This document shows positions 5,483-37,888 of a stretch of 37,888 nt of DNA, one piece after another. The stretch is from Bacteroidota bacterium (GTDB lineage Bacteria > Bacteroidota > Bacteroidia > UBA7662 > JAIXUI01): the NCBI GenBank assembly GCA_027484125.1, contig JAIXUI010000128.1, forward strand, positions 1 through 37,888, in the 5' to 3' direction. Numbering within the stretch: the first letter of the stretch is position 1; every line of letters begins with the position of its first letter. The position numbers and the translations under genes are program-made. Under the pieces are notes generated by a model that saw only the letters and a list, made by a program, of their open reading frames with translations, was not told where the DNA came from and searched no databases.

Positions 5483-6808
5483 TTATTTCTTGTCTTTTTT
5501 GGAAAGGTAAAAGAGACTTACACGATTGGTTTTTCGCAAATATTTCTGTGCAGCCTTTTGAATATCGGCACGAGTAACTTTCATATAACGGTCGATTTCG
5601 TTGTTGATGAGGTTGGCATCACCGAAATAGACCTGATAGTTAGCCAGCGACTCAGCAATACCTGCCACTCCAGAATTTCTGGATACGAAGTCGGTTTCTA
5701 CCTGATTACGTAGCTTTTGAAACTCTTCTTCTGAGATAAGTTCATTCATCAGCTTATTGTATTCGTCATCCATTGCGTTCTCTAAATCCTCTGGTTTGAT
5801 AGTACTTCCGGCAATTCCAAACATTAAGGCAATTCCGGGGTCTTCAGAAGAAAGTGGGAAAGCACCAGCGAAAACAGCTTTTTGTTGTTTATCAACCAGC
5901 TCTTTCTGCAAACGTGAACTATTTCCACGGCTCAAAATAGTAGCCAGCATATCCATTGCATAATAATCCGGTGTTCCTTGGGCCGGCATTCTAAAACCAT
6001 GAACTACTGCCGGAAGCTGAATATTGTCGTAAACAACATCCCTCACTTCTTTGGTCATTTCAGGTTCAACGATTTTCGGACGTGGAATTGATTTGGTCCC
6101 TTTAGGAATAGTACCAAAGTATTTGGCAATCAAAGCTTTGGTAGTGGCAGGGTCAAAATCACCGGCAATGGAAAGTACCGCATTGTTTGGAACATAGAAC
6201 GTTTTATAGAACTCCTTAAACTCTTCGTCTTTTGCTAACGACAAATGTTCCATTGATCCGATAGGCGTCCATTGATAAGGATGCTTTGTGAAAGCACGCT
6301 TCATCATTTCTTCCAGAATAGTTCCGTAGGGTCTGTTGTCGTAACGTTGGCGGCGTTCCTCTTTCACTACATTTCGTTGGGTTTCGATTCCAACACTATC
6401 TACTGTAAGTTGAAACATGCGTTCAGACTCCATCCATAAGCCTAATTCAAGTTGATTTGAAGGCAAAACTTCATAATAAAAAGTGCGGTCTTGGGTAGTA
6501 TTGGCATTCAATTCACCACCGGCACCTTTAACTAAACTCATGTACTCGCCACGTTTGATATTCGGAGAACCTTCAAACATCAGGTGTTCAAAAAAATGTG
6601 CAAATCCTGTTCGTTCAGGATTTTCATTTTTGGAGCCTACATGATAAAGTACGGTTACGGCGACAATCGGGGTCGATTTGTCCTGATGAAGGATAACCTT
6701 TAGACCATTGGGCAATTGATATTGCTCAAACTTGATTTTACCGCCCTGCCCCTGTGTCAAGAGTACACTCGAGACAAACAGAGAAGTGAGAAAGGCTTTT
6801 AATTTCAT
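5483..6808 (-). CDS. Secreted M16 family zinc metallopeptidase (catalytic subunit)
   Basis: A 441-residue protein, counted from the ATG at 6808; a TTG two codons upstream is possible but gives a poorer signal peptide. MKLKAFLTSLFVSSVLLTQG is a clear export signal. The inverted zinc motif HFFEH lies at about 73-77 and the third ligand is a glutamate at about 152 in NVVKEE, with the 74-residue spacing usual for M16. This fits an active pitrilysin/MPP-like peptidase that degrades short peptides inside a closed chamber. It is transcribed ahead of the inactive M16 homologue and probably forms a heterodimer with it (inference). Confidence 0.93.
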   Translation of the reverse strand: MKLKAFLTSLFVSSVLLTQGQGGKIKFEQYQLPNGLKVILHQDKSTPIVAVTVLYHVGSKNENPERTGFAHFFEHLMFEGSPNIKRGEYMSLVKGAGGELNANTTQDRTFYYEVLPSNQLELGLWMESERMFQLTVDSVGIETQRNVVKEERRQRYDNRPYGTILEEMMKRAFTKHPYQWTPIGSMEHLSLAKDEEFKEFYKTFYVPNNAVLSIAGDFDPATTKALIAKYFGTIPKGTKSIPRPKIVEPEMTKEVRDVVYDNIQLPAVVHGFRMPAQGTPDYYAMDMLATILSRGNSSRLQKELVDKQQKAVFAGAFPLSSEDPGIALMFGIAGSTIKPEDLENAMDDEYNKLMNELISEEEFQKLRNQVETDFVSRNSGVAGIAESLANYQVYFGDANLINNEIDRYMKVTRADIQKAAQKYLRKTNRVSLFYLSKKDKK

Positions 6809-12636: not shown

Positions 12637-13417
12637 CAAGGAAGGAATACCCCTTCATGATACCACGAGTAGATTCACGAATAAACCCGAGAATTTCATC
12701 TCTTTCAACGCTGGCTTTCATTTCTGTTTCAATAAACTCCAAGGCAGTATTGGTGTTGTGTTTACTAAGAAACAGAATTCGATAAATTTCTTGGATTTCG
12801 CTAATTTTTTCTGAGCTAAAGCCTCTTCTTCGTAATCCTATTGAATTAACTCCAGCATAAGAAAGTGGTTCACGAGCAGCTTTTACGAAAGGTGGCACAT
12901 CTTTACGGACTAAAGACCCTCCAGAAATCATGGAATGTTGTCCGATTTTCACAAATTGATGTACAGCGGAAACACCTCCGATAATTCCCCAGTCGCCAAT
13001 GACAACATGACCAGCTAGATTGACACTGTTGGCGAGGATACAATTATTGCCTATGAAGCAATCATGAGCTACGTGTACATAAGCCATAAGCAAGCAATTC
13101 GCACCAATAACGGTTTGCCAGCGATCTCTGGTACCGCGATTGATGGTAACACATTCTCTGATGATGGTATTATCGCCAATTACAGTTTGAGTTTCTTCTC
13201 CCTTGAACTTAAGGTCTTGCGGGATAGCTGAAATCACCGCTCCGGGGAAAATCTTACAATTTTTTCCAATTCTAGCACCCGGCATGATGGTGACATTGGA
13301 GCCAATCCAAGAGCCTTCTCCGATTTCAACGTCTTTGTGTATAGTAACAAAGGGCTCAATAACTACGTTATCGGCTATTTTGGCTTGTGGGTGAATGTAA
13401 GCGAGAGGCTGATTCAT
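12629..13417 (-). CDS. lpxA: Acyl-ACP--UDP-N-acetylglucosamine O-acyltransferase LpxA
   Basis: Catalyses the first step of lipid A synthesis in the cytoplasm. At 262 residues it is of usual length. Hexapeptide (left-handed beta-helix) repeats cover about 5-185, and the C-terminal helical part carries FSSEKISEIQEIYRILF, typical of LpxA. The catalytic histidine is His118 in HVAHD, aligned with Escherichia coli His125. The following GGVSAVHQF and DVPPFV motifs are also diagnostic. The start codon overlaps the lpxC-fabZ stop by one base (TAATG), indicating coupled translation. Confidence 0.97.
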   Translation of the reverse strand: MNQPLAYIHPQAKIADNVVIEPFVTIHKDVEIGEGSWIGSNVTIMPGARIGKNCKIFPGAVISAIPQDLKFKGEETQTVIGDNTIIRECVTINRGTRDRWQTVIGANCLLMAYVHVAHDCFIGNNCILANSVNLAGHVVIGDWGIIGGVSAVHQFVKIGQHSMISGGSLVRKDVPPFVKAAREPLSYAGVNSIGLRRRGFSSEKISEIQEIYRILFLSKHNTNTALEFIETEMKASVERDEILGFIRESTRGIMKGYSFLDE

Positions 13418-14814
13418 TACTTTACTTTTTTAACGAGTTGAGCCATTAATTCAGCTTCTACAACCAGTTTATCTCCCACATAGCCACAGCCTTTCATTTT
13501 ACAAATGCCACGTCTAATGGGTTCAGTGAGATCGAGACGGAATACCAAGGTATCTCCAGGGACTACTTTATCTTTGAATTTACAATTGTCGATTTTCAGA
13601 AAGTAAGTCCAGTAGTTGGAAGGTTCATCTTGTGCCATCAAGCAAAGAATCCCACCGGTTTGTGCCATGGCTTCTATTTGCAGCACACCCGGCATTACTG
13701 GGTTTCCTGGAAAATGGCCCATAAAAAAAGGCTCATTGAAGGTTACCGATTTAATCCCGATGATGTGATTGTCGCTCATTTCAACAATCTTGTCGACCAG
13801 CACAAATGGATAACGATGTGGTAAGATATTTTGGATATCACTTACATCATAAACCGGTTTCTGAGCTGGATTGTAGATTGGCACATCCAACTTGCTTTTA
13901 TGCTTTTTCATGACCTGACGAAGCATTTTTGCAAATTCTACATTGGATGAATGACCAGGCTTTGAAGCGAAAATATGCCCTTTGATGGGTTTACCCACCA
14001 AAGCCAAATCACCAATTACATCAAGAAGTTTATGGCGAGCAGGCTCATTTTGATGACGAAGTTCAACATTGTTTAAAATACCTTCTGAGCGCACTTGTAT
14101 GTTCTTCTTATGAAAAACCCCTGATAGCTTTTGGAGTTCATCCTCTGTAACGAGGCGGTCAACAACTACAATGGCATTGCTCAAGTCGCCACCTTTAATA
14201 AGGTTGTTATCAAGCAACATCTGGAGTTCATGAAGGAAGCAGAAAGTTCTACTTGAAGCAATCTGGTCTTTAAACTCATCTAGTTTTTGAATTGAAGCAT
14301 GCTGAGTGCCAAGAACTGGTGATTTATAATCAATCATAACCGTCACCCGATAGTCTTCGTAAGGGGTTGCGACGATTTCTACATCCTTCTTGGCGTCATA
14401 GAAACGAATAGTTTCAGGGATACGGAAATAATGACGTTCAGCATCTAACTCAACGGTTCCAACTGACTCGAGCGCTTCAATAAACTGGATAGAGCTTCCA
14501 TCTAAGATGGGAGGCTCAGAATCATTCAATTCTATGAGCACATTGTCGATACGAAGACCCACGAGCGCTGCTAAAGTATGTTCAACAGTTTGCACTTTAA
14601 CGCCATGAAGTTCAAGGGTAGTTCCCCTTGAAACATCTGTGACCAAATCAGCATCAGCTGGAATTTCTGGTTGGCCCTCGAGATCAACGCGCTTAAATTT
14701 ATAGCCAAAGTTGGCTGGAGCAGGTTGAAAAGTAAGGGTTACTTCCTTTCCGGTATGCAAGCCAACGCCTGAAATTGATACAGGTTTGGCGATAGTTGTC
14801 TGCTTTTCAATCAT
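13417..14814 (-). CDS. lpxC-fabZ: Bifunctional UDP-3-O-acyl-N-acetylglucosamine deacetylase / 3-hydroxyacyl-ACP dehydratase
   Basis: A fusion of two usually separate enzymes, 465 residues long. Residues 1-300 are LpxC, the committed zinc-dependent deacetylase of lipid A synthesis, with zinc ligands His79 (VEHT), His261 and Asp265 (HKLLD) and the catalytic-site His288 (PGHSS). Residues about 315-465 are FabZ, the hot-dog-fold dehydratase of fatty-acid synthesis, with catalytic His367 in [11 protein letters not shown] and Glu381 in QIEAMAQ. The fusion is characteristic of Bacteroidota and puts two enzymes drawing on the 3-hydroxyacyl-ACP pool in one chain. It overlaps lpxD by 8 nt. Confidence 0.97.
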
Positions 14815-36162: not shown

Positions 36163-36225
36163 CCCTTGATAATGATTAAACCCAACCTCATTAATTGCCT
36201 AAACGTAAATACTAAAAACCTTAAT

Positions 36226-37722
36226 ATGAGAAAACTTTTACTTCTACTGGTATGCTTAAGTTGCGTACTCGTGTCCCATGCACAAATCTTTCGTGCAATT
36301 TCAGTATCCGGACAATTGATTAGTAATAATCCGGCTACGCCACTTGGAAATATCACCATTAACATGACGGATTCAAGTGCAAATTCAGGAGGAGGAATCA
36401 TAAGTACCACCTTAACCAATAACGCTGGTTTCTTCTATGATTCTTTGATGATTAGAGGCTCCCAAGGCGTTGTTTACATCTGGCTTTCGGATTGTAACAA
36501 CACCATGATTACTCAAATGATGCCTTATAATCCGGGAACTTCAAGTTTGAGTTTTGTTATCAACTATTGCGCTAGTTCAACTTCCGGCTGTGTGGCAAGT
36601 TTTACTCAGATCACCAACGGTCAGCAAGTTACATTTACAGGCAATATCCCCGTTCCGGGTCTGGCATACACCTACAACTGGTCGTTTGGAAACGGCAATA
36701 CCGGAACAGGAAGAACGGTAACCCAAAACTTCAACCCGGGCACCTACAATGTCTGTTTATATTTAACCGGACCTAATGGATGCAACGATACCGTTTGCCA
36801 AACCGTTACTGTAGGTGCTTCTACTTATCCAATGAATGGCGCAATTACAGGCCCGGTTTCTTCTCAAAATAATATTGTTGAAGTAATTCTCTATCAACTT
36901 CCCAATTGGATCGGATTAGATACGGTTCTTGCCTATCCCGACTCTATGTCAGGGGGCTATGTTTACTACTTCAATCCTGTATTATCCGGTCAATATGCAG
37001 TTCTTGCTCAATTAGCACCTAACTCATCTCAATACAGCTTGTTTCTTCCAACCTACTATGGCAATAGTGGTGCTTGGCAAACCTCAACCCCAATCACTGT
37101 GGGTCCTAATAGCCCAATGCCTCCCTACAACATCAGCATGATCAGCATGCCCATCATGCCGGCTGGCCCCGGTAACATTGGTGGGACTATCCTAAGAGGA
37201 AATTGGCGTGTAACCAATGGAGTGCTGCAAAACGTAAGGGTTCAGCTGCGCGACAACAATGGTCTTTTAGTAAGAAATTCCTTCACCAACGCCAATGGAA
37301 CCTTCAACTTTAGCAATTTGCCATTAGGCAACTATACGGTCTTGGTAGATTGGGGTGGAAGAACCATGACGCCCTATGGTGTAAGTCTTACTACTGCCCA
37401 AAACAGCGTTAACAACATTTTTGTAACGGTAAACCAAGGAAGCATTACCACTGGAGTTAACAATGAAGTCCAATTGAATAGCCTGGTATATCCTAACCCT
37501 GTTCAAAATGAGTTAAATCTGGCACTTCAAGCTACCGAAGCAGGAACTTGGAACATTGAAGTATTAGATATGAGCGGAAGAATCATCAGCCGCCAAACTC
37601 AGGATGTGACTTCCGGAAGCAACTTGATTACTTTCGACGCTACCAACTGGTCACGAGGATTGTATTTGCTACAAGGTTCAAACAATCAAGGAATTAAAAT
37701 CACGTACAAGCTCGTGAAATAA
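36226..37722 (+). CDS. T9SS-secreted surface protein with PKD and CnaB/SdrD-like domains
   Basis: 498 residues from the ATG at 36226, chosen because it begins a classic signal peptide (MRKLLLLLVCLSCVLVSHAQ); upstream codons are non-hydrophobic. Domains: an N-terminal carboxypeptidase-regulatory-like beta domain (about 22-112), a PKD domain (about 116-197, YNWSFGNGNTG and FNPGTYNVCLYL), a middle segment of unknown type (205-310), a CnaB/SdrD-B-like domain (about 315-405, with NGTFNFSNLPLGNY), and a T9SS C-terminal sorting domain (418-498, YPNP to YKLVK). The role is probably adhesion or matrix binding. A terminator follows at 37743. Confidence 0.9.
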   Translation: MRKLLLLLVCLSCVLVSHAQIFRAISVSGQLISNNPATPLGNITINMTDSSANSGGGIISTTLTNNAGFFYDSLMIRGSQGVVYIWLSDCNNTMITQMMPYNPGTSSLSFVINYCASSTSGCVASFTQITNGQQVTFTGNIPVPGLAYTYNWSFGNGNTGTGRTVTQNFNPGTYNVCLYLTGPNGCNDTVCQTVTVGASTYPMNGAITGPVSSQNNIVEVILYQLPNWIGLDTVLAYPDSMSGGYVYYFNPVLSGQYAVLAQLAPNSSQYSLFLPTYYGNSGAWQTSTPITVGPNSPMPPYNISMISMPIMPAGPGNIGGTILRGNWRVTNGVLQNVRVQLRDNNGLLVRNSFTNANGTFNFSNLPLGNYTVLVDWGGRTMTPYGVSLTTAQNSVNNIFVTVNQGSITTGVNNEVQLNSLVYPNPVQNELNLALQATEAGTWNIEVLDMSGRIISRQTQDVTSGSNLITFDATNWSRGLYLLQGSNNQGIKITYKLVK

Positions 37723-37742
37723 CCTAGCATCGACCTTTAGAG

Positions 37743-37772
37743 AAAGGGCTACCCAAACGGTAGCCCTTTTTT
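37743..37772 (+). terminator. Rho-independent terminator of the PKD/T9SS gene
   Basis: An 11-bp perfect stem (AAAGGGCTACC with GGTAGCCCTTT) with a 5-nt loop, continuing into a T-run. The group II intron begins two bases after the T-run. Confidence 0.9.
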
Positions 37773-37774
37773 AT

Positions 37775-37888
37775 GTGCGTCAGGCATGTGTATCAGCTCT
37801 AGGGTGGAAGTCCCGAGCGGGAGTTGCAGTACTTACCGTTAGCCAAGAGCAAGGGTGTCCGTTGTGAAGCGGAATCTGAAGGAAGCTG
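37775..37888 (+). mobile_element. Group II intron, 5' end of domain I (truncated by window)
   Basis: The stretch opens with GTGCG, the conserved GUGYG 5' end of group II introns. It has a domain I hairpin GCTCTAGGG/CCCGAGC (37796-37818), and the segment GGAATCTGAAGGAAGCTG at the very end, a conserved motif of bacterial intron domain I. The remaining ribozyme, any reverse transcriptase gene and the 3' boundary lie outside. The structural class cannot be decided from 114 nt. Confidence 0.85.

Follow-up and report, generated by a model that had tools for sequence, protein, structure and literature searches.

The window analysed here, 37,888 nucleotides in length, is the whole of contig C64 from a 3.33-Mb genome assembled in 167 contigs. 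Near its end, on the forward strand, lies a gene for a secreted protein whose C terminus carries a T9SS type A sorting domain (36226..37722; TIGR04183, E = 5.4e-15); the ORF was listed as 36166–37722, and the ATG at 36226 is the likelier start. The gene is followed on the same strand by an intrinsic terminator hairpin (37740..37772) with the core GGGCTACC/GGTAGCCC and a T-run at 37767–37772. The segment 37740–37774 reads GAGAAAGGGCTACC-CAAAC-GGTAGCCCTTTTTT-AT, and the 42 nt preceding the intron fold at −21.9 kcal/mol. An automated terminator scan of the window did not list this hairpin, though it is clear on folding, probably because its A/T-extended stem includes the T-run. The remainder of the window, 37775..37888 on the forward strand, is the 5′ part of a group II intron, namely its first 114 nt with the start of domain I, which begins GTGCGTCAGGCATG... 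and is cut off where the contig stops. The final four bases of the 5′ exon, TTAT (37771..37774, forward strand), were placed as IBS1 by EBS1–IBS1 covariation among 12 introns.

An earlier note on this DNA had put a GTGCG start at 37775, two bases past the T-run, and these coordinates proved correct in the sequence and at the boundary shared by all seven copies described below. The note had also regarded the site behind the terminator as harmless. In agreement with this, the insertion leaves the upstream gene intact, its reading frame running unbroken to 37722. The 5′-end motif GTGYGNCNGGCATG occurred once in the window and in 0 of 100 shuffled sequences. An Rfam search of the window at gathering thresholds gave no match because the contig holds only 31 nt of the model; the last 31 bases matched RF02001 (group-II-D1D4-3) as a truncated hit with E = 6e-4, which fell under the gathering score because the contig stops there.

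The same 5′ end was found at seven junctions in the genome (contigs C64, C126, C107, C51, C7, C5 and C156). The seven copies were 97–100% identical and started at the same base, and the sequences upstream of them were unrelated. Since the feature sits at the extreme end of a contig, a chance resemblance or an assembly artefact might be suspected; with seven junctions that combine differing upstream sequences with one boundary, and with a motif absent from the shuffles, such an explanation has a negligible likelihood. When one hairpin criterion was applied to the junctions and to random window positions, a hairpin (stem of at least 6) with at least four T in the last 10 nt preceded 7/7 junctions vs 3.65% of the random positions. 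Six of the junctions were strong terminators, and the one in C126 (L002) was a weak AT-rich hairpin of −4.5 kcal/mol. These junction sequences indicate that the element has spread by copying to at least seven places in a Bacteroidota-type genome, every one of them behind a terminator-type hairpin.

Most of the contigs carrying a 5′ end stopped about 110–120 nt into the intron, as expected where an assembler meets a multicopy repeat. Five further 3′ ends belonging to this family (in C27, C30, C81, C89 and C25) likewise lay at contig ends. The intron copies explain why this contig and several others in the assembly break just behind terminators. They also bear on whether the window copy is a dead relic, truncated to a 5′ fragment. 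Decay does happen in this family, as degenerate fragments of the same intron on C167 demonstrate; those relics are 82–90% identical, whereas the 114 nt of the window are 97–100% identical to six other copies, and contig breaks inside repeats, with same-family 3′ ends also at contig ends, are expected for intact multicopy introns. We consider a relic at this locus improbable, and infer that the unassembled remainder of the window copy is like the other copies. The fragments on C167 (L019) comprise three internally deleted relics within about 7 kb, at 12724–12782, 13703–13890 and, on the minus strand, 6572–6714. Two of the three directly follow terminator T-runs, and GCCACAAGGCTGTGGCA-type repeats adjoin two of them.

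Because the window copy covers only 114 nt, EBS1, the reverse transcriptase (RT) and domains 5 and 6 (D5/D6) were taken from other copies. Contig C156 extends 298 nt into the intron and shares 119 identical bases with the start of C8; joining the two gave a composite intron of 1945 nt, in which copies may be mixed since the join was inferred from the 119-nt overlap. The composite matched RF02001 with 145 bits, RF01998 with 54 bits and RF00029 with 45 bits. The RF02001 score comes from domain I of the C156 copy and accompanies a GUGYG-type 5′ end, which reads GTGCG at 37775 in the window. The RF00029 match, representing D5/D6, lies at C8:1690–1766 in a sister copy and is above the cut-off. In the sister copies the intron ends in ...CTACTCGAT, an AY-type 3′ end. 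The overlap itself joins C156:1–119 (minus strand) to C8:1–119, and the contig break falls either at intron position 179/180, the base beside the EBS1 loop, or at 298/299. A break so near the EBS1 loop hints that the copies may differ there.

One intact RT/maturase frame was present in C8 (236–1687; 483 aa as listed), and its homology to solved proteins begins at residue 60, which corresponds to an ATG at C8:413. The intron-encoded protein (IEP) matched TIGR04416 with 395.5 bits. In Pfam its domains were RVT_1 and GIIM only, and no endonuclease domain was detected. A search of viral contigs for relatives of the RT found none. The group II identity claimed earlier was upheld by the repeated 5′ end and by the Rfam domain matches in sister copies, and sister copies within this intron family contained both the D5/D6 and the intact RT that the earlier note had wished to see downstream.

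The earlier note had further suggested that the intron might belong to a lineage other than class C, and this part was not supported. Against solved proteins the IEP scored 413 bits with the GsI-IIC RT and 387 bits with 7uim, compared with 117 bits for the IIA protein LtrA and 114 bits for 6me0; the IIC scores thus exceed those of the IIA/IIB proteins by about 270–300 bits. In addition, RT similarity led to 11 introns in related genomes, mostly Bacteroidota, and the start of domain I (D1) was 70–87% identical between these and the present intron. An intron of the IIA or IIB type that merely uses the terminator as a safe site might still be proposed, as a truncated Rfam D1 match alone does not fix the class and the genome also contains another group II family, whose D5 is different (C50, C104). 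The RT scores and the D1 identity to introns with related RTs both oppose it, the C156–C8 overlap connects the window-type 5′ end with the RT of class C and with the D5 that accompanies it, and IIC introns select their targets by a short EBS1–IBS1 pairing together with a hairpin (PMC3898094). An IIA or IIB origin is accordingly very improbable, and the intron is assigned to standard group IIC (class C), an assignment that draws on RT scores rather than on a formal tree.

The second group II family is represented by 3′ ends at C50:42–117 and C104:42–117 (L009 and L010), which matched RF00029 with 60 bits. The assembly yielded no RT belonging to this family, nor was its 5′ end located.

For the analysis of target pairing, EBS1 was defined as the four bases after [CT]TG[CG] in a domain I loop and IBS1 as the four bases before the intron, and the set consisted of one copy from the genome itself (C156/C8) and 11 introns from related genomes. 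Over these 12 introns, 43/48 positions were paired vs a permutation mean of 35.4 (p = 2.5e-5, a rough value because the permutation ignores kinship among the introns). When the own-genome copy was left out, 41/44 positions were paired (p = 3.5e-5). The start of one intron (L045) was ambiguous (GTGTGTGCC) and was re-registered to GTGTGCCAGGC, in alignment with the other introns, after the result had been seen; before this change the count was 41/48 (p = 0.0015). The covarying EBS1/IBS1 combinations included ATAA with TTAT, AAAA with TTTT, TAAA with TTTA, and ACAA with TTGT. The positions of EBS1 and IBS1 follow from this covariation, which also supports an intron start at 37775.

The EBS1 of the window copy lies beyond the contig end, and the short pairing is documented across related introns. 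The only EBS1 visible in the genome is ACAA (C156/C8), which would pair at 3/4 positions with the TTAT of the window, at 4/4 with the TTGT of C107 but at only 2/4 with the CTTT preceding C156 itself. The imperfect fits to the window and to C156 count against the group IIC reading given below, as do the weak C126 hairpin, the brevity of the window copy and the possibly mixed composite. IBS1 varies within the genome (TTAT, TTGT, CTTT and TTTG). The first base of the 3′ exon is T in nearly all copies, leaving too little variation for EBS3–IBS3 covariation, and EBS3 was not located. It is conceivable, but in our estimation rather unlikely, that this class C lineage was active recently and that its copies within the genome differ in their EBS1 loops, so that the intron is retargeted to other IBS1 sequences but still needs a hairpin.

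Class C introns insert at intrinsic terminators, which they recognize by short IBS1 and IBS3 sequences and by a DNA hairpin instead of IBS2, and introns whose proteins have no endonuclease use primers from the replication fork (PMC4424553; PMC3898094). All of the present measurements agree with this reviewed mechanism. We conclude, with a probability of roughly 0.96, that the window ends with the 5′ part of an RT-encoding group IIC intron that is present in the genome in multiple copies. In the mechanism envisaged, the intron RNA together with its maturase/RT would reverse-splice into DNA where an IBS1 such as TTAT follows a terminator hairpin; EBS1 in domain I would pair with IBS1, and the hairpin would take the place of IBS2. 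As the protein has no endonuclease, a strand of the replication fork would probably prime reverse transcription. The hairpin at 37740..37772 presumably served as the hairpin target at this locus. By analogy with described class C introns, the intron would be expected to splice and to be mobile.

An empty site would read ...CCCTTTTTTAT joined straight to the 3′ flank, with no target duplication. In a search of 100 related genomes, the nearest of which belong only to the same order, the upstream flank gave just two short, weak matches.

Terminator targeting is a known behavior of these introns, and the present one is an ordinary member of a well-described family. It offers a clean, statistically testable case of class C terminator targeting in Bacteroidota-type genomes, accompanied by EBS1–IBS1 covariation among related introns. 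At the ribozyme level it resembles the ORF-containing IIC introns O.i.I1 of Oceanobacillus iheyensis and B.h.I1 of Bacillus halodurans (PMC4424553), with which it shares the GUGYG start, a short EBS1–IBS1 pairing, insertion 3′ of intrinsic terminators and an IEP without an endonuclease. It differs from both in its Bacteroidota-type host genome and in sequence. The closest solved homologue of its protein is the GsI-IIC RT from a Geobacillus group IIC intron (PDB 6ar1; 413 bits over 415 residues); the RT and thumb/X domains are common to the two proteins, and the hosts differ. Further relatives are an intron in a Chitinophagales MAG (JAMLHH010000019.1, L038) and the Bacteroidota IIC introns L039, L041, L042, L044 and L045, whose RTs are 52–71% identical and whose D1 starts are 74–87% identical to those of the present intron. 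Nearly all of these lie behind T-runs, and they differ in their EBS1/IBS1 combinations and insertion loci.
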